Shown in pieces: positions 1,626-11,915 of a stretch of DNA of 11,915 nucleotides; positions within the stretch are counted from its first letter, which is position 1; each line of letters begins with the position of its first letter. A program made the position numbers and the translations under genes. Under the pieces are notes generated by a model. That model made no database searches. It was not told where the DNA came from and saw nothing but the letters and a program-made list of their open reading frames with translations. Source of the DNA: a bacterium (GTDB lineage: Bacteria; SM23-31; JAUVVT01); contig JAUWXV010000108.1 in assembly GCA_030616165.1 (NCBI GenBank), positions 1-11,915 of the forward strand. The letters are read 5' to 3'.

Positions 1626-3002
1626 TCACCCACCAATCCTCTGAAAGATATTGTAAACCGCAAAACAAAGAATAATTGCACTGCATATCCAGAGGAGAAT
1701 ATCAGTGATTTTTGTTGGCAGAATGTTCTTATTTGTATATTTGTATCTGAGATAAATTGTTGAGAATGCAATTACTGGAAGCATAATGGCTTGGGCGGTT
1801 CCGCCGATAATTATCATAAGTATAGGCTTCCCAATCAGGGAATATAGTGTAAAGCAAATAATTGGAATTATAATACACAACCTTCCCACATATTTCATGC
1901 GTTCTTTGTAACTGTTGATTTCTATCCATCCAATAATTTCGAATATGTCGGTAAATGTTCTTGAATGGGTTGCTACTGCTGAGATAAATGTTGAGAAGAA
2001 CACAAAAAAGGCACCTCCCAGGAAGATTGTAGAAGCCCAGACACCAACAGTGGAAGTATACATATTAGATAAAATTTTTATCATTTCGTCTTCTTTTGGA
2101 ACAATACCCATCTGATAGAGAACACTTGCCCCGAGAATAAAAAAGGCGATTGTGGTAATAGTATAAATGACCATAGAGAACAAAATGTCAATGTGCATAA
2201 CCCTTATCCATCCTCTTGCACGATTGACCCATGAACGGCTTTCTTCTACTGCTCCGGTGAACCTTGCGTATCCCTTTTCCAGACACCAATAAGGATACAT
2301 GATAAGTTCAGTGGCACCCACACCAACAATCCCGAAAACTGCCATTGAAGTTGTCAGTCCTCCCTTCGGAATGTGGAATTTAAATCCCTCAATAATGTCT
2401 GATGGAGTAATAGAGTATGGCGTCCATTTAATCATAACTGCGCAGAATAAAGTAAATATACTGAACACTGCAACCATAAAGGTTAAAGAGCGGACGATAA
2501 ATTTATATCTGCCTCTAATTAATATTGACATTCCGAAGAGTGTGATAATAACCGACCAGATTGTTGTATTTACTTTTGGGACAAGAAGGTGTAAAGCTTG
2601 ACTTATACCCCCTATCATAGCCCCAATCTGTAAGAAAACAAGCATAATCATAAAAAACCAGCACCATATAGGCCATGCAACCAGCAGTTTTGGTCCCGGG
2701 ACTTTGTTCAGGGCATTCATTGTGGTTTCGCCAGTAGAAATAGTATATTTGCCGAGTTCTCCCTGGATAATAACTTTAACCAGACAGCTGATTATGATAA
2801 GCCATAGGGCAGCGAACCCGACTTGAGCGCCGAGGGTTGGTGTGGCTATTAATTCACCCACACCCACTATATTTGCTGTGACAATCAAACCTGGTCCTAG
2901 ATGTTTAATAGAAGTTAAAATCGTTCGGGGAGGTTCCTGCACATAATCACGATGAAGTTTGTATGGATCCCAGTCAGAGGAGGGTATTGATTTCTCGGAC
3001 AT
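1626..3002 (-). CDS. Nramp-superfamily transporter with atypical metal-site motifs
   Basis: This is a polytopic inner-membrane protein of 458 residues with about 11-12 predicted helices and a LeuT-type fold as in the Nramp (MntH) superfamily. The family is recognisable from the TM1 region (LGPGLIVTA, ~35-43) and the TM6 region (GATELIMYPYW, ~229-239). The canonical Nramp DPGN motif in TM1 is absent and replaced by VGVGEL (46-51). The TM6 MPH motif is replaced by MYP (235-237). Both pseudo-symmetric helices instead carry a GVG...ELI pattern with Glu50 and Glu232. I recall a group of bacterial Nramp-like proteins with a G-x-GEL motif; their substrate is not established, so Mn/Fe transport should not be assumed. 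The start is supported by AAGGAG at 3009-3014, 6 nt before the ATG. A possible -10 (TATAAT) lies at 3046-3051 on the minus strand. Confidence 0.85.
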   Translation of the reverse strand: MSEKSIPSSDWDPYKLHRDYVQEPPRTILTSIKHLGPGLIVTANIVGVGELIATPTLGAQVGFAALWLIIISCLVKVIIQGELGKYTISTGETTMNALNKVPGPKLLVAWPIWCWFFMIMLVFLQIGAMIGGISQALHLLVPKVNTTIWSVIITLFGMSILIRGRYKFIVRSLTFMVAVFSIFTLFCAVMIKWTPYSITPSDIIEGFKFHIPKGGLTTSMAVFGIVGVGATELIMYPYWCLEKGYARFTGAVEESRSWVNRARGWIRVMHIDILFSMVIYTITTIAFFILGASVLYQMGIVPKEDEMIKILSNMYTSTVGVWASTIFLGGAFFVFFSTFISAVATHSRTFTDIFEIIGWIEINSYKERMKYVGRLCIIIPIICFTLYSLIGKPILMIIIGGTAQAIMLPVIAFSTIYLRYKYTNKNILPTKITDILLWICSAIILCFAVYNIFQRIGG

Positions 3003-3986: not shown

Positions 3987-5003
3987 TTATAAAACTACCT
4001 CTTCCTTAACCTTCACTTCGATGGCGTTTTTCGGGCAGACCGGTTTGCATAGTCTGCATCCGATGCAGGTATCCGGATTAATTTGATATATATCTTTTTC
4101 TTCGTTCAGGGTAATGCAATTTTTTACCGGACATGTTTTGACGCATAATTGGGCAGGCTGGTCAACGCATTTATTGCAGTCTTCATTAATATGGAGAGGT
4201 TCGAATTTTATTTCCGTTACATAACTTTTAGTCGGGCATTTGTAAGCGGCGGCGACAAGATTAACATTTTTTGTAAAATTGACTGTTGGGAGATTTTCAT
4301 CCATAACAATATCTCCGGATGGAGTGGTTTTTGGGTTTGCGCATAGTGAACAACCTGTGCATCCAACCGGGCAAACATTCTTAACGTTTTTCCCTTTATC
4401 TTTTGAGACGCATGCGAGGTATATTTTCTGTGTAACAGGGATGAGTTTCATAATATTTCTCGGACAGGCTTTCACGCACAATCCGCATCCGGTGCACTGT
4501 TCCTCTATTACCACTGGTAGATTATCCGGACCCATAAATATAGCATTGTATGGACATGCCTCAACACATGAATCGAGACCAAGACATCCGTAAACGCATG
4601 CCTTTCCGCCGCCTGAAATAAGTTCTGCGGCATTACAGTCCTTTATTCCAGTATATTCAAAGAGTTGTTTTGCTTTATCTTTTCCCCCTTTACATTGGAC
4701 GACTGCTTTCATCTTCACAACTTCTTTAGCTTCTGTACCCAATATATCAGCGATTTTTTGTGCAGTTTCTTTACCTCCCGGAGCACATAAGTTTATATCA
4801 AGTTTCCCAATTACCACGGCTTCTGCATATCCGAAGCATCCTGGTGCCCCGCATGCACCACAGTTTGCACCGGGGAGCATTTCGAATATCTGGTCTATTC
4901 TCGGGTCAACTTTTACCTCGAAAATTTTCGATGCATAGGCAAGAATTGCTCCAAATATTATTCCAGAGACTCCAAGTATTATTATTGGTGCTAAAATTAG
5001 CAT
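3987..5003 (-). CDS. rnfB: Rnf complex subunit RnfB (polyferredoxin)
   Basis: RnfB is thought to accept electrons from reduced ferredoxin and pass them into the ion-pumping Rnf complex. The 338-residue protein has an N-terminal membrane anchor (~3-22), a Fes-type four-cysteine site (NCGACGAPGC, Cys48/51/56 plus Cys73) and a first double-cluster ferredoxin domain (Cys136/140/146/150 and Cys170/173/176/180). A middle domain has Cys215/218/221 and Cys256, and a C-terminal domain has Cys276/279/287/291 and a canonical CxxCxxCxxxCP at Cys313-323. That gives potential for about six [4Fe-4S] clusters. It is much longer than the roughly 190-residue gammaproteobacterial RsxB and closer to the long RnfB of acetogens. 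The middle domain appears to have lost one cluster. It is last in the operon, 388 bp after rnfA, with only a weak GGGGA before its start. Confidence 0.95.
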   Translation of the reverse strand: MLILAPIIILGVSGIIFGAILAYASKIFEVKVDPRIDQIFEMLPGANCGACGAPGCFGYAEAVVIGKLDINLCAPGGKETAQKIADILGTEAKEVVKMKAVVQCKGGKDKAKQLFEYTGIKDCNAAELISGGGKACVYGCLGLDSCVEACPYNAIFMGPDNLPVVIEEQCTGCGLCVKACPRNIMKLIPVTQKIYLACVSKDKGKNVKNVCPVGCTGCSLCANPKTTPSGDIVMDENLPTVNFTKNVNLVAAAYKCPTKSYVTEIKFEPLHINEDCNKCVDQPAQLCVKTCPVKNCITLNEEKDIYQINPDTCIGCRLCKPVCPKNAIEVKVKEEVVL

Positions 5004-5113
5004 TTTTATATATTTCCCCGAAGTTTTAAATTAACCTTTCAAAAGAATAAGTTTAATTTCATTCAAATATATAACAAATAGTATATACAAAAAGGTTCAA
5101 TATTTAATTTTAT

Positions 5114-5378
5114 AACTGAACTTTGGTAAATTTTATAAAATTCAATATTTTTCGCGAAATTTGCATATGACTTTTAAATAAAACCTACTACCTTGTCATT
5201 CCGATCCTGAAACATTACTGAATCAAGTTCAGCACAGGGTTCAGGTCTTCGGAATCTATTGTTTAATTATGATTTAGATGCTGAAACAATACTGAATCAA
5301 GTTCAGCACAGGATTCAGCATGACAGAATTCTTTAACTTTAATTTAAACTATTTAATAAATTTTACCAAAGTTCAGTT
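5114..5378. mobile_element. MITE-like element with 17-bp terminal inverted repeats
   Basis: AACTGAACTTTGGTAAA at 5114-5130 is exactly repeated in inverted orientation at 5362-5378, and the similarity continues inward imperfectly through an AT-rich stretch of about 8 bp. The 265-bp unit has no coding capacity. Flanks are TTTAT on the left and TATAA on the right, which would fit a TA-type target duplication but are too AT-rich to prove one. It carries internally the palindromic block 5194-5325. It lies inside the rnf operon 13 bp after the rnfA stop, so it should be transcribed and can fold as one long RNA hairpin. A miniature inverted-repeat transposable element is the best reading; a host regulatory structure is the alternative. 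Confidence 0.6.
5194..5325. repeat. Pair of 40-bp palindromic repeat units
   Basis: Two direct copies lie at 5206-5245 and 5280-5319, differing at 4 of 40 positions. Each unit has closing arms CCTGAA/TTCAGG (first) or GCTGAA/TTCAGC (second), a compensatory pair change that keeps the hairpin. Each also has an inner CTGAA-tcaag-TTCAG hairpin. The first unit is further enclosed by ATTCCGA (5198-5204) and TCGGAAT (5249-5255). The whole block is bounded by TGTCAT (5194-5199) and ATGACA (5320-5325). This resembles widespread interspersed palindromes of the TGTCATTCCGA...TTCAGCATGACA type that I have seen in many bacterial genomes. Confidence 0.8.
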
Positions 5379-5391
5379 TATAATATAATGT

Positions 5392-6042
5392 TTATAGAGT
5401 TAAACCAGAAAAACCGAGAAATGCAATTGCCATCAATCCGGCTGTAATAAATGCAATAGGAACCCCTTTAAGGGATTCAGGAATTTCTTTGAGTTCTAAT
5501 TTTTCTCTGAGTCCTGATATAAGAATGAGTATAATCAGGAATCCCGCTCCTGCTGAAAATCCCTGCACACCACTCTGAATAAATGTGAATTTGCCTTCAA
5601 TTCCAATGCTTGGATTTCCTTCAATATTTAACAACGCCACTCCAAGAACAGCACAATTTGTTGTTATTAAAGGAAGATAAATCCCAAGAGCCCGATAAAG
5701 GGAGGGGCTTGTTTTCTGAATGAACATTTCAATAAATTGGACGAGTGACGCTATTACCAGAATAAAAGCAATAGTCCGCAAGAAAGTCAAGTCAGGTGCT
5801 GTTCCTTCTGGCGAAAAGTATTTGAGTATGCTTGTAGTTGGGTCAAGAAAATAGTTATAGACCAACCACGTAACAATCGATGCTAATGTCATAACGAATA
5901 TTACAGCAAAGCCCATTCCAACAGCAGAACTCATTTTTTTTGAAACTCCTATGAAGGGACATAAACCTAAAAATCGGGTCAGGACAAAGTTCTGAATAAA
6001 TATTGAATATACCGCTATAATTAATAATAGTTTTAATTCCAT
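5392..6042 (-). CDS. rnfA: Rnf complex subunit RnfA
   Basis: RnfA is an integral membrane subunit paralogous to RnfE. The two form an inverted pair that binds a membrane-embedded iron-sulfur centre carrying electrons between ferredoxin-side and NAD-side modules. The 216-residue protein has six hydrophobic helices. The conserved cysteines are present: Cys28 in RFLGLCPF and Cys130 in TTNCAVLG. It is somewhat longer than the usual 190-200 residues, with extra residues in the loop around 66-86 ([15 protein letters not shown]). An AGAAGG sequence about 11 nt upstream serves as ribosome binding site. It follows rnfE by 26 bp and is followed by the repeat element that separates it from rnfB. Confidence 0.96.
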
Positions 6043-6068
6043 TTTGTTTTTTTACCTTCTGAGATTTT

Positions 6069-6728
6069 CTATTTAGGGTTTTCAGTAGTAATTAATTTTT
6101 TTTCTTTAAATTTTAGAAAGATTTTTTGATTTTTTCTTATCTCAATCCAGTTGATAGTTCCTAATATAAGCCCAATAAGTATGAAAGCCCCGGGCGGCAG
6201 AATCATAAGTAAGACTGGCTCAAATTCCGGTCCGAAAAGATAGTATCCCAGTAATTTCCCGTCTCCTATGATTTCTCTGACTGAACCGAGAAAGACGAGG
6301 ACAATGGTAAATCCAATGCCCATTCCTAAGGCGTCGATAATTGACCTTCCGAGCGAATTTTTGCTTGCGAACGCTTCTGCTCTTCCAAGTATAATACAAT
6401 TTACCACAATCAGGGGGACGTATATACCAAGAGCTCTAAATAGAGAAGGAATGAATCCTGCCATTATTAGCTCTACTATAGTAACAAATGTGGCAATTAT
6501 GACGATATATATTGGAATTCTAATCTTCCTTGGGACAATCCCCTTTACCGATGAGACTATTATGTTAGAAAATAGTAATACAAAAGCTGCTGCCAGACCC
6601 ATTCCCAGTCCGTTTATCAGAGATGTAGTAACAGCAAGTGTTGGGCATAATCCAAGAAATATTGCTGTTATTGGATTTTCTTTATAGATTCCTTTTATAA
6701 ATTCTTCAAATAAACCTTTGTTTTCCAT
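6069..6728 (-). CDS. rnfE: Rnf complex subunit RnfE
   Basis: RnfE is the membrane partner of RnfA in the central electron-transfer core. The 219-residue protein has six predicted helices and the paired cysteine motifs: Cys28 in FLGLCPTLAV and Cys111 in VVNCIILGRAEAFAS, the second being a typical RnfE/NqrD signature. The RALGIYVPLI segment (98-107) is nearly identical to the corresponding RnfA segment, reflecting their common origin. A lysine-rich cytoplasmic tail (about 198-219) ends the protein. It starts 26 bp after rnfG with only a weak AGAGA upstream, so translation may be partly coupled to the preceding gene. Confidence 0.96.
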   Translation of the reverse strand: MENKGLFEEFIKGIYKENPITAIFLGLCPTLAVTTSLINGLGMGLAAAFVLLFSNIIVSSVKGIVPRKIRIPIYIVIIATFVTIVELIMAGFIPSLFRALGIYVPLIVVNCIILGRAEAFASKNSLGRSIIDALGMGIGFTIVLVFLGSVREIIGDGKLLGYYLFGPEFEPVLLMILPPGAFILIGLILGTINWIEIRKNQKIFLKFKEKKLITTENPK

Positions 6729-6754
6729 TTTAAATCTCTAATTCAATTAGTAAG

Positions 6755-7345
6755 TTATTCAGTAATTGTTTTTTCTTTTTCAAATTTTACATAATCAGAT
6801 AACCATTCGATTCCCTCCTGAATAGAATTTGCCACTGCCCTCGATGTTATAGTTGCACCGGTGATACTTACGATTTCACCATTGTCTTTGTCAACTTTTA
6901 TGTCGGCTGCAAATTTTCCTGCAAACTGCTTTTGAAACCATGGTTTTTCTTCTCTAGGTCTTATCTCCGTTGATTTTGCTCCCAGCCCGGGTGTTTCCTG
7001 CTGAAAGAGGATTTCTATTGATTCTATAATCCCTTTATTATTTACTCCGACCATAGTTTGGATTCTGCTTGAATATCCCTGTCCATAAGCAATAAATGCA
7101 AATTCGTTAGGTCTTTGAGTAGTATCTTCGGCTGCATATCCCAGGTAGTAAGTTTTTTCATCTATGGTTTTGTTTTCTGTGATAATTTTTGCTCCGGGGA
7201 GAACATGTTCCAAAGCCTCTTTTATTACTCTTTTTCTTTCCATTTCGATACGTGGTCTTGTTATCTTATTTACCCCCGCCAGGGAAAAGGCAGCAGCGGT
7301 ACAAAAAATTCCCAGAATTAATGATAGTTTTATTATATCTTTCAT
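6755..7345 (-). CDS. rnfG: Rnf complex subunit RnfG (covalent FMN)
   Basis: RnfG is a flavoprotein on the outer face of the membrane, anchored by one N-terminal helix (about residues 5-24). It carries FMN attached to a threonine by ApbE. The FMN_bind domain is visible from about residue 85: a QETPGLGAKS segment (116-125) and the attachment motif TGATITS (162-168), with Thr167 the expected flavinylated residue. Its length of 196 residues is normal. No apbE gene is in the window, so flavinylation must rely on one elsewhere. It begins 7 bp after rnfD, and its GGGAG ribosome binding site lies inside the end of rnfD, which fits translational coupling. Confidence 0.96.
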   Translation of the reverse strand: MKDIIKLSLILGIFCTAAAFSLAGVNKITRPRIEMERKRVIKEALEHVLPGAKIITENKTIDEKTYYLGYAAEDTTQRPNEFAFIAYGQGYSSRIQTMVGVNNKGIIESIEILFQQETPGLGAKSTEIRPREEKPWFQKQFAGKFAADIKVDKDNGEIVSITGATITSRAVANSIQEGIEWLSDYVKFEKEKTITE

Positions 7346-7352
7346 ATATCTT

Positions 7353-8378
7353 TTAACTCCCGAATGGTTTAACTTTTAAATACCTGTCCAGAAGTGGTGT
7401 TGTAAGGTTCATCAGGAGGATAGAATATGATACCCCTTCAGGATAACCACCAACGCGGCGTATGATAACGGTAAAGATTCCGCAGCCCAAACCGAAAATC
7501 CACTGTCCTTTTGAGGTGGAAGGTGATGTTACCATATCAGTTGCCATAAAAAAGGCGCCGACGATTAATCCTCCAGAAAGAATATGAAAAAGAGGATCAC
7601 CACTGAAATTACCATTAGGTCCGCCAAATATATAGGTAAATATGGCTACGGTAGCAATATATGAAAGTGGTATTCTATAATTGATATATCCTTTGTAAAG
7701 GAGATAAATGGCTCCAATTAATAGGAGTAAGACCGATGTTTCTCCAATGCATCCCCCTACATTTCCCAAGAAGAGATTCCCATAAGAACCTTTAAGTTCA
7801 GCAATCGTTTGTAAAGCCTGCTGTGCTTTATCTTCAACACTTAGATTGTCTATCGCTTCTTTTAATACAGCGAGGGGTGTAGCAGTAGTAATGGCTGAGA
7901 TTCCGGATTTTGTTCCGTAAATAGGGGCGGTCCAGTCGGTGGTCATGTGAACGGGCCATGATGCAAGCAAAAATGCCCTGCCAAGAAGCGCAGGATTCAT
8001 AGGATTAAAACCTAATCCGCCAAATGCCTGTTTTCCTATTGATATTGCGAAAAATGACCCGGCGACCGGCATCCACCAGGGAACACCACCGGGAAGGTTG
8101 AATGCCAGAAGTATGCCTGTTACAATTGCACTCCCATTCGATAGCGTGGTCTCAACTTTTCTTAATTTCAGGATTGTCCATTCTGTAATAACAGCAGTTA
8201 TGATGGAAATCAGTGTCAGCCATAACGCTCTCACACCGAAAAAATATACAGACCCTAAAAGAGCAGGCATAAGCGAGATAACCACAGCAAACATTATTTT
8301 TTGAGTAGTGTCTTTGGCTCTTATATGGGGAGCGGATGAGACTGATAAGATTTCTTTGGTTGTGATTTGCTCTTCCAT
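7353..8378 (-). CDS. rnfD: Rnf complex subunit RnfD (covalent FMN)
   Basis: RnfD is a polytopic membrane subunit homologous to NqrB and part of the ion-translocating core. The 341-residue protein has about ten hydrophobic segments. The flavin attachment region TTATPLA (164-170) is present, with Thr167 in ATPL the expected FMN-linked threonine. Other family signatures are NGSAIVTGILLAFNLP (81-96), GGLGFNPMNPALLGRAFLL (120-138), GGCIGETS (208-215) and the C-terminal IIRRVGGYPEGVSYS region (305-319). It starts 40 bp after rnfC without a recognisable Shine-Dalgarno sequence, in a leader that contains a perfect 11-bp palindrome. Confidence 0.96.
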   Translation of the reverse strand: MEEQITTKEILSVSSAPHIRAKDTTQKIMFAVVISLMPALLGSVYFFGVRALWLTLISIITAVITEWTILKLRKVETTLSNGSAIVTGILLAFNLPGGVPWWMPVAGSFFAISIGKQAFGGLGFNPMNPALLGRAFLLASWPVHMTTDWTAPIYGTKSGISAITTATPLAVLKEAIDNLSVEDKAQQALQTIAELKGSYGNLFLGNVGGCIGETSVLLLLIGAIYLLYKGYINYRIPLSYIATVAIFTYIFGGPNGNFSGDPLFHILSGGLIVGAFFMATDMVTSPSTSKGQWIFGLGCGIFTVIIRRVGGYPEGVSYSILLMNLTTPLLDRYLKVKPFGS

Positions 8379-8392
8379 AATTTTTTATTTTT

Positions 8393-8417
8393 TTACTTTC
8401 TTTACTAAAGAAAGTAA
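8393..8417. repeat. Perfect 11-bp palindrome between rnfC and rnfD
   Basis: TTACTTTCTTT at 8393-8403 is mirrored by AAAGAAAGTAA at 8407-8417 around a 3-nt loop, directly after the rnfC stop codon. On the coding (minus) strand it is followed by an A-rich run rather than a U-tract, so it is not an intrinsic terminator for the operon. It could be a processing or stability hairpin in the polycistronic RNA. Confidence 0.7.
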
Positions 8418-8418
8418 G

Positions 8419-9744
8419 TTATTTTTTTGCTTCCTGCATAATTTTGAACTTTGCAAACTTTATGTTCTGGACAAGATTTATCCTTGCTGGGCATATATAT
8501 GAGCAGCATCCACATTCAATGCAGTCAAGTGCATTATATTCACCAGCGTCTTCAATTCTTCCGTTTTCTACAAGACTTGCTATAATATTTGGCGTAAGGT
8601 TCATAGGACATATTTCAACGCATTTACCGCAGTTTAGGCAAGGGGTTGTCTTTCCGAATCCTATTTGCTCTGACCTTAAAATTATAATACCTGAGGTGCC
8701 TTTAATCACCGGGGCATTGAGTGAATGCTGTGCTATGCCCATCATTGGTCCACCTATAATGATTTTTTTGGGTGAGTTTACAAAACCTCCGCAGTAGTCT
8801 GTCAGATTTTTTAAAGGGGTTCCAATTCTTACATTTAAATTTTTTTGATGCGTAATATCTCCTGCGACGGTGACGACTCTGTCAATGAGTGGTCTTTTAA
8901 AAGCAACTGCATCGTAGACAGCCTTTGCAGTTCCAACATTCTGAACTAAACATCCAACCTCCATAGGCAGTTTACCGGGTGGAACTTTCCTTCTGGTTAG
9001 GGCATAAATCAATTGTTTTTCAGCACCTTGTGGATATTTGACATCCAGTGAAACGACACCTATTTCGGGAAACTTTGATGAAACGTCTTCCATCTTTTTA
9101 ATAGCATCTGGTTTATTATTTTCAATTCCGACAATTCCTCTGTTCACGCCAAGGATTTTCATGATAATCCTGAACCCTTCGATAATTTCTTCTGTTTTCT
9201 CCAGCATTAACCTGTGATCGCTGGTCAGATAAGGTTCACATTCTGAACCGTTTAATATGGCTGTATCAATTTTCTTTTCTGGTGGGGGAGATAGTTTCAC
9301 ATGAGTAGGGAAAGTGGCGCCCCCCATTCCAGCAATCCCGGCTTCGTAAATCATATTTTTCATCTCTTCAGCAGGAAGATTCATATAATCGGGATTGAAC
9401 TCAATTTTTTCAGAATATTTATCCTCACCGTCACTTTCGATAATAACAGAGTTAACTTCTCCACCGAGTGGGTGAATATGGGGCTGTATTGCCTTGACTG
9501 TTCCCGATATTGAAGCGTGGCAGGGAACTGAAACAAACCCCCCTGCTTCACTTACAGGGTCTCCTGCATTAACCTTATCTCCTTTATTTACGATAATTTT
9601 CGATGGTTTTCCGATATGCTGCTGGAGAGGGATTATTACCTCTTCGGGCAGGGGAATCTCTTCTATGGGTTTTGACTCGGTGTATTTTTTGTTTTCTTTG
9701 GGATGAACACCCCCTTTGAAATTTCTTTTTAATATATCAAACAT
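8419..9744 (-). CDS. rnfC: Rnf complex subunit RnfC (NADH-binding)
   Basis: RnfC is the cytoplasmic NAD(H)-reacting subunit, related to the NuoF/Nqo1 51-kDa protein. The 441-residue protein begins with the typical FKGGVHPKENK segment (9-19). It has the nucleotide-binding loop GIAGMGGATFPTH (136-148) and the flavin-site segment NGSECEPYLTSDHRLM (165-180). Two ferredoxin motifs close the domain: C369-x2-C372-x2-C375-x3-C379P and C408-x2-C411-x2-C414-x3-C418P. The length is close to family members of about 440 residues. It is the first gene of the operon. The start matches family N-termini, yet the leader of AU-rich sequence shows no Shine-Dalgarno sequence. Confidence 0.97.
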   Translation of the reverse strand: MFDILKRNFKGGVHPKENKKYTESKPIEEIPLPEEVIIPLQQHIGKPSKIIVNKGDKVNAGDPVSEAGGFVSVPCHASISGTVKAIQPHIHPLGGEVNSVIIESDGEDKYSEKIEFNPDYMNLPAEEMKNMIYEAGIAGMGGATFPTHVKLSPPPEKKIDTAILNGSECEPYLTSDHRLMLEKTEEIIEGFRIIMKILGVNRGIVGIENNKPDAIKKMEDVSSKFPEIGVVSLDVKYPQGAEKQLIYALTRRKVPPGKLPMEVGCLVQNVGTAKAVYDAVAFKRPLIDRVVTVAGDITHQKNLNVRIGTPLKNLTDYCGGFVNSPKKIIIGGPMMGIAQHSLNAPVIKGTSGIIILRSEQIGFGKTTPCLNCGKCVEICPMNLTPNIIASLVENGRIEDAGEYNALDCIECGCCSYICPARINLVQNIKFAKFKIMQEAKK

Positions 9745-9991: not shown

Positions 9992-10020
9992 TTGGAGTTT
10001 TAAAAAAGGAGTGTTACATT
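9992..10020 (+). promoter_or_regulatory. Possible nikR promoter overlapped by the operator
   Basis: TTGGAG (9992-9997) and TACATT (10015-10020) are spaced by 17 bp and are moderate matches to -35 and -10. The -10 lies inside the NikR operator, which would allow autorepression. The match is weak and the DNA is AT-rich, so this is a tentative placement. Confidence 0.35.
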
Positions 10021-10037
10021 ATTAAAAAAAATAACAC
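10011..10037 (+). promoter_or_regulatory. NikR operator upstream of nikR
   Basis: GTGTTAC (10011-10017), 13 nt, then ATAACAC (10031-10037): a dyad matching in 6 of 7 positions the NikR box I recall from comparative genomics of several non-enterobacterial groups (GTGTTAC-N13/14-GTAACAC). It ends directly before the GGAG ribosome binding site of nikR, so bound NikR would block its own transcription. A second, matching box lies at 10485-10511. Confidence 0.82.
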
Positions 10038-10048
10038 GGAGACATTTT

Positions 10049-10468
10049 ATGAGTTTTGTTAAGAGATTTGGGGTATCGATGGATGATGTTCTATTGGAAA
10101 AATTTGACGGACTTATTTCTGAGAAGGGTTACAAGAACCGCTCAGAGGCTATACGGGATATAATTAGAGAAAAACTTGTCAGTGATGAATGGAAAAGCGA
10201 AAAGGGTGAAAAGGTGGGAACTGTTACTCTGGTTTACAATCATCATAAGAGAGGGATTTCTGATAGTTTAAATGGCATTCAGCATCATATGAATAGATAT
10301 ATCATTTCAACAATGCACGTCCATCTTGATGAGGGTAACTGTCTTGAGGTAATTGTTGTAAAAGGAGCGGCAAAGAGAATAATGAGTCTTGTTGATAAAT
10401 TAATCGGGTTGAAGGGGGTAAAGCATGGTAGATTTGTGATGACAACAACCGGCAGAGATATAGTTTAA
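10049..10468 (+). CDS. nikR: Nickel-responsive transcriptional regulator NikR
   Basis: NikR is a tetrameric repressor that binds operator DNA when loaded with Ni(II). The 139-residue protein has an N-terminal ribbon-helix-helix DNA-binding domain (about 1-45, with strand RFGVSM and helix [14 protein letters not shown]) and a C-terminal ACT-like metal-binding domain. The square-planar nickel ligands are conserved with the spacing of the E. coli protein: His79, His90, His92 and Cys98 (equivalent to His76, His87, His89 and Cys95). The C-terminal KGVKHGRF is also typical. GGAG at 10038-10041, 7 nt before ATG, fixes the start. Operators flank the gene on both sides, indicating autoregulation and control of the downstream ECF genes. 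It is divergent from the rnf operon. Confidence 0.97.
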
Positions 10469-10484
10469 AAATTTTTATATTTAG

Positions 10485-10511
10485 ATGTTACAAATATTTT
10501 ATTAGTAACAC
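10485..10511 (+). promoter_or_regulatory. NikR operator upstream of the ECF operon
   Basis: ATGTTAC (10485-10491), 13 nt, then GTAACAC (10505-10511). Spacing and half-sites agree with the box before nikR, and the two boxes have their single mismatch on opposite arms. It lies between nikR and the S-component gene, directly upstream of a perfect -10 box, where a bound repressor would cover the -35 region. Confidence 0.85.
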
Positions 10512-10516
10512 TCGTT

Positions 10517-10522
10517 TATAAT
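10517..10522 (+). promoter_or_regulatory. -10 box of the ECF transporter operon
   Basis: A perfect TATAAT lies 5 bp after the NikR operator and 34 bp before the S-component start codon. The expected -35 position falls inside the operator and has no good TTGACA match. Its placement relative to the operator is what makes it credible. Confidence 0.55.
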
Positions 10523-10556
10523 AAAGGTTCTCATAAATAACCAATCAATAGGAAGA

Positions 10557-11066
10557 ATGTCATTCAGAGGAAGGGATATAGTTATAGGTTCAATTTTTAG
10601 CGGACTTGGAGTTGTTTTTCCGATAATGTTTCATCTTGTTGGACTTGGTTCGGTATTTTTACCGATGTTTTTGCCGGTAGTCACTGCTGGATTTTTGGTA
10701 TCTTTTCCCGTAGCGTTTTCTATAGGGTTAATAACACCTTTATTTTCGTCAGTGATTACAGGGATGCCGCCAATTTTTCCACCTGTAGCGCCTGTTATGT
10801 GCATTGAATTATCTATTCTTACGGGTTGTGCATCTCTATTTTATAGAAATTTGAGGTGGAATATCTGGTTAAGTTTAGTCTGTGCGATAGTTTTTTCAAG
10901 AACAGTCTATTTGGTCATTATTTTATTAATTGTGCCTTTAATGAAACTACCACCCGGTGTATTAACTATTGCTGCAGCAATTTCGGGGATTCCAGGAATT
11001 ATCCTTATGATTGCTGTTGTACCTCCAGCAGTAAAAATGGTTGAAAAAAAATTCCATTCTTTTTGA
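10557..11066 (+). CDS. ECF transporter substrate-binding (S) component, nickel-regulon type
   Basis: This is a 169-residue membrane protein with about five to six hydrophobic helices, of the size and pattern of ECF-type ABC transporter S components. Recognisable segments are LGSVFLPMFLPVVTAGF (30-46), SVITGMPPIFPPVAPVMCIEL (65-85) and the C-terminal SGIPGIILMIAVVPPAVK (143-160). I recall these from a family of ECF S proteins of unassigned substrate, often with LPMHIP where this protein has LPMFLP. It is not canonical NikM/CbiM: those begin with Met-His metal ligands and are longer, whereas this starts MSFRGRD. The operator before it and the CbiQ-type gene behind it argue for uptake of nickel or a nickel-linked compound. 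The start is preceded closely by AGGAAG, an unusually short spacing. The substrate is inference. Confidence 0.75.
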   Translation: MSFRGRDIVIGSIFSGLGVVFPIMFHLVGLGSVFLPMFLPVVTAGFLVSFPVAFSIGLITPLFSSVITGMPPIFPPVAPVMCIELSILTGCASLFYRNLRWNIWLSLVCAIVFSRTVYLVIILLIVPLMKLPPGVLTIAAAISGIPGIILMIAVVPPAVKMVEKKFHSF

Positions 11067-11096
11067 TAAACTTAAATTGTCTGTTAATTTATCAAA
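11062..11096 (+). repeat. Hairpin between the S-component and methyltransferase genes
   Basis: TTTGATAAA (11062-11070) pairs with TTTATCAAA (11088-11096). Continuing inward, TTAA pairs with TTAA after one bulged C, giving about 13 bp around an 8-nt loop. It overlaps the stop codon of the S gene and ends 14 nt before the methyltransferase ATG. It has no following U-tract, so it is more likely an RNA stability or translation element than a terminator. Confidence 0.6.
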
Positions 11097-11110
11097 TCAG
11101 GCAGTATAAA

Positions 11111-11701
11111 ATGGAAAATCATAGAAAATACTTTGATAGTATTGCTTCAGAATGGGATAGTTTATTTTCTGAGGAAGAAAGGATAAAGGAAGCGGTTGAT
11201 TTAATGAATATATCTCCGTATGAGATAATACTCGATGTCGGCTGTGGGACAGGAAGGCTTATCCCTCATCTTAAAAAAAGATTAAAAAATAGTGGAAGGG
11301 TTTTCAGTTTGGATTTATCATTGAAAATGCTGTTGAATGCAAAAATGAAGAAATATTCAAGATTGGCGGAATTTGTTAATGGATGTGTGGAACATCTGCC
11401 TTTTAAGGAAAAGAGGTTTAGCAGAATTATATGTTTTGCAGTTTTTCCACATATTATTGATAAAAAAATGTCGGTTAGAGAATTTAACAGACTTTTACAA
11501 AAAAAAGGGATACTGAATATTTTTCATCTGAGGAGCAGAGAAGAGTTAAATGAATTTCATAAGAATATAGGGGGAGTTTTAAGTGAAGATTTACTTCCAG
11601 ATGAAGATACTATGAGAAGAATTCTTGAAAATGGCGGCTTTAAGGATATTATTATCGTTAATAAGCCTTCTTTTTATCATACTCAATGTATAAAGGTTTA
11701 A
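11111..11701 (+). CDS. Class I SAM-dependent methyltransferase
   Basis: This is a soluble methyltransferase of 196 residues from the ATG at 11111. The SAM site is intact: motif I LDVGCGTG (41-48), an acidic residue ending strand 2 (Asp68 in SLDLS), and the VEHLPF segment (93-98) followed by an FSRIICF strand, as in UbiE/Methyltransf_11 proteins. The C-terminal half has a distinctive pattern HLRSREELNEFHKNIGG (139-155), then LLPDEDTMRRILENGGF, and several His and Cys residues (His139, His150, His190, Cys193). I recall relatives with this H-x-x-S/G-R-E-E-x-N-x-F-H segment but not their substrate. A TTG at 11063 is an alternative start overlapping the upstream stop; the ATG fits the usual N-terminus (YFDSIASEWD) better. 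It lies between S and T genes of an ECF transporter, 7 bp before the latter. Confidence 0.88.
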   Translation: MENHRKYFDSIASEWDSLFSEEERIKEAVDLMNISPYEIILDVGCGTGRLIPHLKKRLKNSGRVFSLDLSLKMLLNAKMKKYSRLAEFVNGCVEHLPFKEKRFSRIICFAVFPHIIDKKMSVREFNRLLQKKGILNIFHLRSREELNEFHKNIGGVLSEDLLPDEDTMRRILENGGFKDIIIVNKPSFYHTQCIKV

Positions 11702-11708
11702 TATAGAT

Positions 11709-11915
11709 ATGAGTGATGGGGCAAAAATTCTTATTTTTATAATTTTTGTTGTTTCAGCGATATTAATTCCTGAAAAGAATTTTTATTTATACATTTTGCA
11801 TTTTTCGATTGTAGTTTTTTCTCTCTTTTATTTTAAGATGAGGTTTATGGATTTTTTAAAAAGGTTATTGGTTGGTCTTCCTTTTGTTTTAGTTGTTTCT
11901 TCAACTGCCTTTTTG
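11709..11915 (+). CDS. cbiQ: ECF transporter transmembrane (T) protein, CbiQ-type, N-terminal part
   Basis: This gene is cut by the window end: 69 codons from the ATG at 11709 remain open. The product begins with a helix (about 6-20), a short loop with Pro21-Glu22, a second helix (about 26-42), then MRFMDFLKRLLVGLPFVLVVSS. The pattern of two short N-terminal helices followed by an amphipathic K/R-LL-LPFVL stretch is typical of the N-terminus of CbiQ/EcfT proteins, which couple S components to the ATPases. An AAAGG inside the end of the methyltransferase gene lies 11 nt upstream. The ATPase (CbiO/EcfA) is expected just outside the window. The family call rests on the N-terminus and context only. 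Confidence 0.7.
   Translation, partial: MSDGAKILIFIIFVVSAILIPEKNFYLYILHFSIVVFSLFYFKMRFMDFLKRLLVGLPFVLVVSSTAFL

Follow-up and report, generated by a model that had tools for sequence, protein, structure and literature searches.

In the ECF importers NikMNQO/CbiMNQO, the S unit belongs to PF01891 (NikM/CbiM) and a CbiQ-family T component is encoded with an ABC ATPase in one operon under a NikR box. The gene cluster described here has the same box consensus and, in relatives, the same pairing of T and ATPase, but its S component is a vitamin-type protein of PF12822, and a methyltransferase (MT) and a TonB receptor (TBDT) are added. The consensus itself, GTGTTAC-N13-GTAACAC, is the published NikR signal of delta-proteobacteria (PMC545781), the operator that marks a NikR regulon being written with a spacer of N13/14. 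In Caldithrix abyssi, nikR is followed by two cbi/nik homologues and then by a TonB receptor gene, the whole run standing under a NikR motif (PMC5317091); that paper names only Cabys_1316-1319, and the transporter is annotated as nikMNQO. The same gene order is found in one of the loci compared here (L072), but this locus continues with S and MT, which the paper does not discuss. No description of an S-MT module was found in the open-access literature, and the cluster is apparently a system for nickel acquisition not described before, recurring in many uncultured bacteria.

The window, a stretch of 11,915 nt, is the whole of contig C11 of a 3.74-Mb genome assembled in 343 contigs. The genes nikR, S, MT and T lie in the same direction at the end of this contig, and are listed here with the two NikR boxes:

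10011..10037, + strand: NikR box before nikR, GTGTTAC-N13-ATAACAC, 13/14
10049..10468, + strand: nikR, nickel-responsive repressor, 139 aa (domain and NCBIfam matches)
10485..10511, + strand: NikR box before the S gene, ATGTTAC-N13-GTAACAC, 13/14
10557..11066, + strand: ECF S component of an unnamed family, 169 aa, vitamin-type S fold (PF12822, predicted fold, conserved residues)
11111..11701, + strand: class I SAM-dependent methyltransferase (MT), 196 aa (Methyltransf_11, SAM motif, invariant H114/H139/H150)
11709..11915, + strand: EcfT (CbiQ-like), first 69 aa, gene cut by the contig end (similarity to the T protein of L013)

The initial annotation had proposed a NikR-controlled ECF module with these genes in one direction, two NikR boxes and an S protein other than NikM/CbiM. 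The domain matches, the box scan and the similarity of the T fragment to that of L013 bear out the arrangement, and the core of the reading, a NikR-controlled ECF module with this kind of S protein, is supported; its suggestion of a small nickel ligand would also fit. Divergent from nikR is an operon for the Rnf complex (rnfC, D, G, E, A, B; window 3987-9744), and an Nramp-family metal transporter gene lies at 1626-3002. In a sister genus (L188), the rnfC-nikR neighbourhood is kept and S is on a separate contig.

The nikR product matches NikR_C (PF08753) at 4.4e-31 (107.4 bits against a cut-off of 22) and RHH at 3.1e-6 in Pfam, and the NCBIfam NikR equivalog at 204 bits (cut-off 105). Each of the two boxes has one mismatch to the consensus; in shuffled sequence the expectation for a box with two or fewer mismatches is 0.01, and two sites occurred in 0 of 200 shuffles. 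No third site with at most one mismatch was found in the whole 3.74-Mb genome. Sites with two mismatches elsewhere in the genome were rejected as NikR boxes, because a reversed control pattern gave as many or more.

Relatives were gathered by protein search and profile search, the S family being found in 36 of the 386 sampled genomes at an E-value of 1e-8, and most of the weaker S relatives among the 36 are without MT. The loci, the majority of them from metagenome-assembled genomes, were picked by similarity to S or MT, so that the S-MT linkage arises partly by selection; nikR, boxes, TBDT, T and A (EcfA ATPase) were not selected for, and the evidence is comparative throughout. The module is present at least in the window's own family, in Calditrichota and Gemmatimonadota, and in one genome of the Aminicenantes. 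Its order is nikR-TBDT-S-MT-T-A in L022 (Aminicenantes), nikR-T-A-TBDT-S-MT in L072 and L074, TBDT-S-MT-T-A in L075 and L076, S-MT-T-A-TBDT in L013, nikR-TBDT-S-MT in L014 and L071, nikR-S-MT in L019 (Gemmatimonadota), T-A-S-MT in L025 (Calditrichia) and MT-T-A-S-TBDT in L070.

A nikR gene or NikR box is present in 13 of the 17 S-MT loci, the boxes of L023 and L075 being weak, and neither was recognised in L015, L070, L076 and L085. The possibility raised by the initial annotation, that S-MT pairs occur mainly apart from NikR boxes, is thus not what the survey shows. With upstream zones defined from gene starts, independently of the sites, 9 sites matching at least 13/14 positions lie upstream of the first module gene (8,360 tested positions in the 17 loci), against 1 in 466,638 positions elsewhere in the same loci (Fisher p 1.6e-15). 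NikR itself is encoded in 10 of 13 S-MT genomes and in 95 of 373 others (p 2e-4). The cluster appears to be under NikR control, and nickel-dependent repression is predicted from these sequence patterns.

TonB receptors are encoded in 12 of the 17 S-MT loci. Receptor, transporter and one enzyme of a biosynthetic type in a single operon are what might be seen if MT made a nickelophore for export, to be taken up again once loaded with nickel, an alternative already present in the initial annotation. This seems very improbable, given that no recurring exporter or second biosynthetic gene was seen in the loci inspected and that an FmdE-domain protein replaces MT between S and T in one locus (L024, see below); nor were ligand-biosynthesis genes recognised in the loci.

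The S gene product matches PF12822 (ECF_trnsprt) at 37.2 bits against a cut-off of 30.7; this is its sole Pfam family, with no match to PF01891, and a PDB sequence search with the protein gave no match. The predicted structure (pLDDT 86) has the fold of an ECF S component and aligns best with TmRibU (Z 17.2, rmsd 2.5, 158 aligned), followed by the S protein of 4hzu (Z 16.4) and PanT (Z 14.9), with CbiM at Z 8.8. As modelled, S resembles RibU/HmpT/PanT rather than CbiM. It shares the full-length S fold with the vitamin components RibU, HmpT, PanT, FolT and ThiT (Z 17 to 12), but has no detectable sequence relation to those that have been solved, is NikR-controlled and has pocket residues of its own. 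Residues H26 and E84 are invariant in all 31 S proteins compared and R115 is kept in 28 of them. NikM/CbiM S units carry a conserved N-terminal Met-His metal site; no N-terminal His is conserved across the 31. Judged by the order of the helices and by the topology usual for S components, H26, the loops GSVFLPM and TGMPP, and E84 would lie at the periplasmic, substrate-binding side of the model. In the tree of S proteins, few deep branches are supported.

MT matches Methyltransf_11 in Pfam (4e-18). ATG 11111 was preferred to TTG 11063 as its likely start, the L013 orthologue beginning at the equivalent position. As modelled (pLDDT 94), MT has a class I (Rossmann) fold, with Hvo_0019, UbiG and Coq5 as the closest structures (Z about 22 for UbiG and Coq5), and the SAM motif GxGxG is kept (D42, G44, G46, G48). 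Among the 34 family members, H114, H139 and H150 are invariant and N147 is found in 32. An equivalent of H114 is common among related methyltransferases, so this residue was discounted as special, H139 and H150 being the more distinctive.

The invariant H26 and E84 of S and the three invariant histidines of MT would suit uptake of nickel free of any ligand, with S coordinating Ni(II) by His26, Met37, Met70 and Glu84, and with MT or its FmdE counterpart as a cytoplasmic nickel acceptor or chaperone. We regard this as rather unlikely, since the S fold is only distantly like that of CbiM, the retained SAM motifs would be superfluous in a plain chaperone, and TonB receptors suggest a complex.

The 69-aa T fragment has no Pfam match by itself, but aligns at 64% identity with the beginning of the T protein of L013, from a genome of the same family (G001), which matches CbiQ at 57.8 bits. 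Full CbiQ-family T proteins are encoded in L013, L022, L025, L072, L074 and L075, and EcfA in L013, L022, L025, L070, L072 and L074-L076. The companion EcfA gene to which the initial annotation had pointed was therefore recovered in relatives, but an orthologue was not found in the window's own genome (best ATPase 39% identical), contig C11 ending inside T. An orthologue of the module TonB receptor, 77% identical, is encoded in this genome on contig C306. The module receptors, including L034/L038 on C306, share a His that is invariant and, apart from slight variation, the plug loop GRPxxMGxxG(H/C); this loop motif is absent from another receptor of the same genome, on contig C188. Neither contig could be accepted as the continuation of the window: on C306 the 280 bases before the receptor are without EcfA, while the T fragment at the end of C188 is not similar to the T protein of L013 and the receptor beside it lacks the module plug motif. 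A second EcfT fragment in this genome (L003, 6736-7158), with a different TonB receptor after it (4766-6739), is possibly another TonB-ECF pair.

Two features were absent from the initial annotation, the TonB receptor and the occurrence of MT beside transporters that are not of the ECF type. In the profile search, MT family members were found after ZnuABC-type transporters (L161-L163, L167, L168, L170 and L173), with nikR following at once upon the set and MT in L168; after a FecCD-type transporter (L176); after nikR-TBDT alone (L169, L171); and with no recognised adjoining transporter (L160, L172, L174). The ZnuA-type proteins carry CPGHxD where readable, and the ZnuABC-type sets beside the MT family are candidates for a nickel variant of ZnuABC. 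In L024 the place of MT is taken by an FmdE-domain protein (PF02663): the order is S-FmdE-T, and a nikM-T-A operon preceded by a NikR box lies just downstream. Such proteins also adjoin S in L073, L081, L080 and L069, nikR being present too in L080 and L069. In L182, where the ZnuA-type motif reads CPAHxD, one accompanies a ZnuABC-type set that has a NikR-like box in front of it, and in L179 one occurs with FecCD and nikR. They keep an FHxHLGP (FHGHLGP-like) motif and a Cys. In L069, L080, L177 and L178, a gene for a type IV pilin-like protein is situated beside the nikR and S/FmdE genes or between them.

The association of the MT family with several transporter types indicates that MT follows nickel uptake and not one transporter. 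That MT or the FmdE protein stands under nickel control across three transporter classes suggests that the imported substance, and not a particular transporter, is what they act on. Since bare ions are the usual substrate of ZnuA-type binding proteins, the linkage of MT to that class fits free nickel equally; the presence of MT beside ZnuA-type proteins bearing CPGHxD, and the motif and Cys retained by the FmdE-like proteins, are further points in favour of the chaperone role considered above.

A nickel context is also seen in the carriers. The window's own genome encodes LarC and, on contig C34, a NiFe-hydrogenase-like large subunit with both profile ends matched; weak PF00374 matches elsewhere may stem from complex I relatives, and no weight was placed on them as evidence. 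In L020, S-MT is followed directly by larE-larB-larC, the genes for the nickel pincer cofactor. LarC was found in 6 of 17 genomes with this S family and not found in 11. An S gene of the same family without MT (L021, 5668-7258) is convergent with hypB-hypA (hydrogenase nickel insertion). The importer search in these 17 genomes covered the NikM/CbiM family, and PF01891 was not found in 15 of the 17, the own genome included. A canonical nikM/cbiM, which the initial annotation had held would speak against its proposal, was thus not found in the genome.

The vitamin-type fold of S and the adjoining larE-larB-larC genes of L020, with LarC in 6 of 17 genomes, would also agree with the import of a nickel-free organic molecule for nickel enzymes or cofactors, such as a precursor of the nickel pincer cofactor, which MT would process. 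This is improbable: LarC was not found in the larger part of these genomes, repression by NikR at high nickel suits nickel uptake better, and most of the genomes would then be left without a recognised ECF nickel importer.

Judged from sequence comparison, the module very probably takes up nickel. The presence of a TonB receptor points to a substrate that is complexed or scarce; a nickel complex is favoured by this receptor together with the vitamin-type fold of S and the association of one enzyme with varied transporters. The reading preferred here, with a probability of about 0.55, is a NikR-repressed import of complexed nickel through a TonB receptor and a new family of ECF S components, with MT acting on the ligand or on nickel inside the cell. 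At sufficient nickel, NikR would repress the operon. The nickel species, most likely in complex with a small organic ligand, would pass the outer membrane through a BtuB-like TonB receptor; S would bind it at a periplasm-facing pocket, and EcfT and the EcfA ATPase would drive its inward movement. In the cytoplasm, MT may modify the ligand and thereby free the nickel for hydrogenase and LarC-type maturation, an FmdE-domain protein taking its place in other lineages. Gene identities, boxes, conserved linkage, the lack of NikM/CbiM, the S fold and the SAM motif are observed; nickel as the substrate, its complexed state and the part played by MT are inferred. After this reading come, in falling order of likelihood, the nickel chaperone, the organic precursor and ligand synthesis.

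HmuW, a methyltransferase of the class C radical SAM type, releases the iron of imported haem (PMC10404700). HmuW/ChuW operons resemble the present module in that a SAM-using methyltransferase is part of a metal-chelate uptake operon, but the module MT is class I and not radical SAM. HmuW is a precedent for the idea of a metal-freeing methyltransferase and not a relative of MT.

A wider and more doubtful extension of complexed-nickel import is that the complex might enter through several types of transporter (the new ECF S family, ZnuABC-like systems with CPGHxD, and FecCD-like systems), to be dismantled by the MT family or an FmdE-domain protein that frees the nickel, in what would be a widespread strategy. 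The findings give an unnamed family of ECF S components a likely substrate class, nickel, and tie the MT family and FmdE-domain proteins to nickel supply. Since NikM/CbiM, the importer family searched for, was not found in most module genomes, the module may be the main nickel route of these carriers, and the scavenging of complexed nickel by bacteria becomes a directly testable question.
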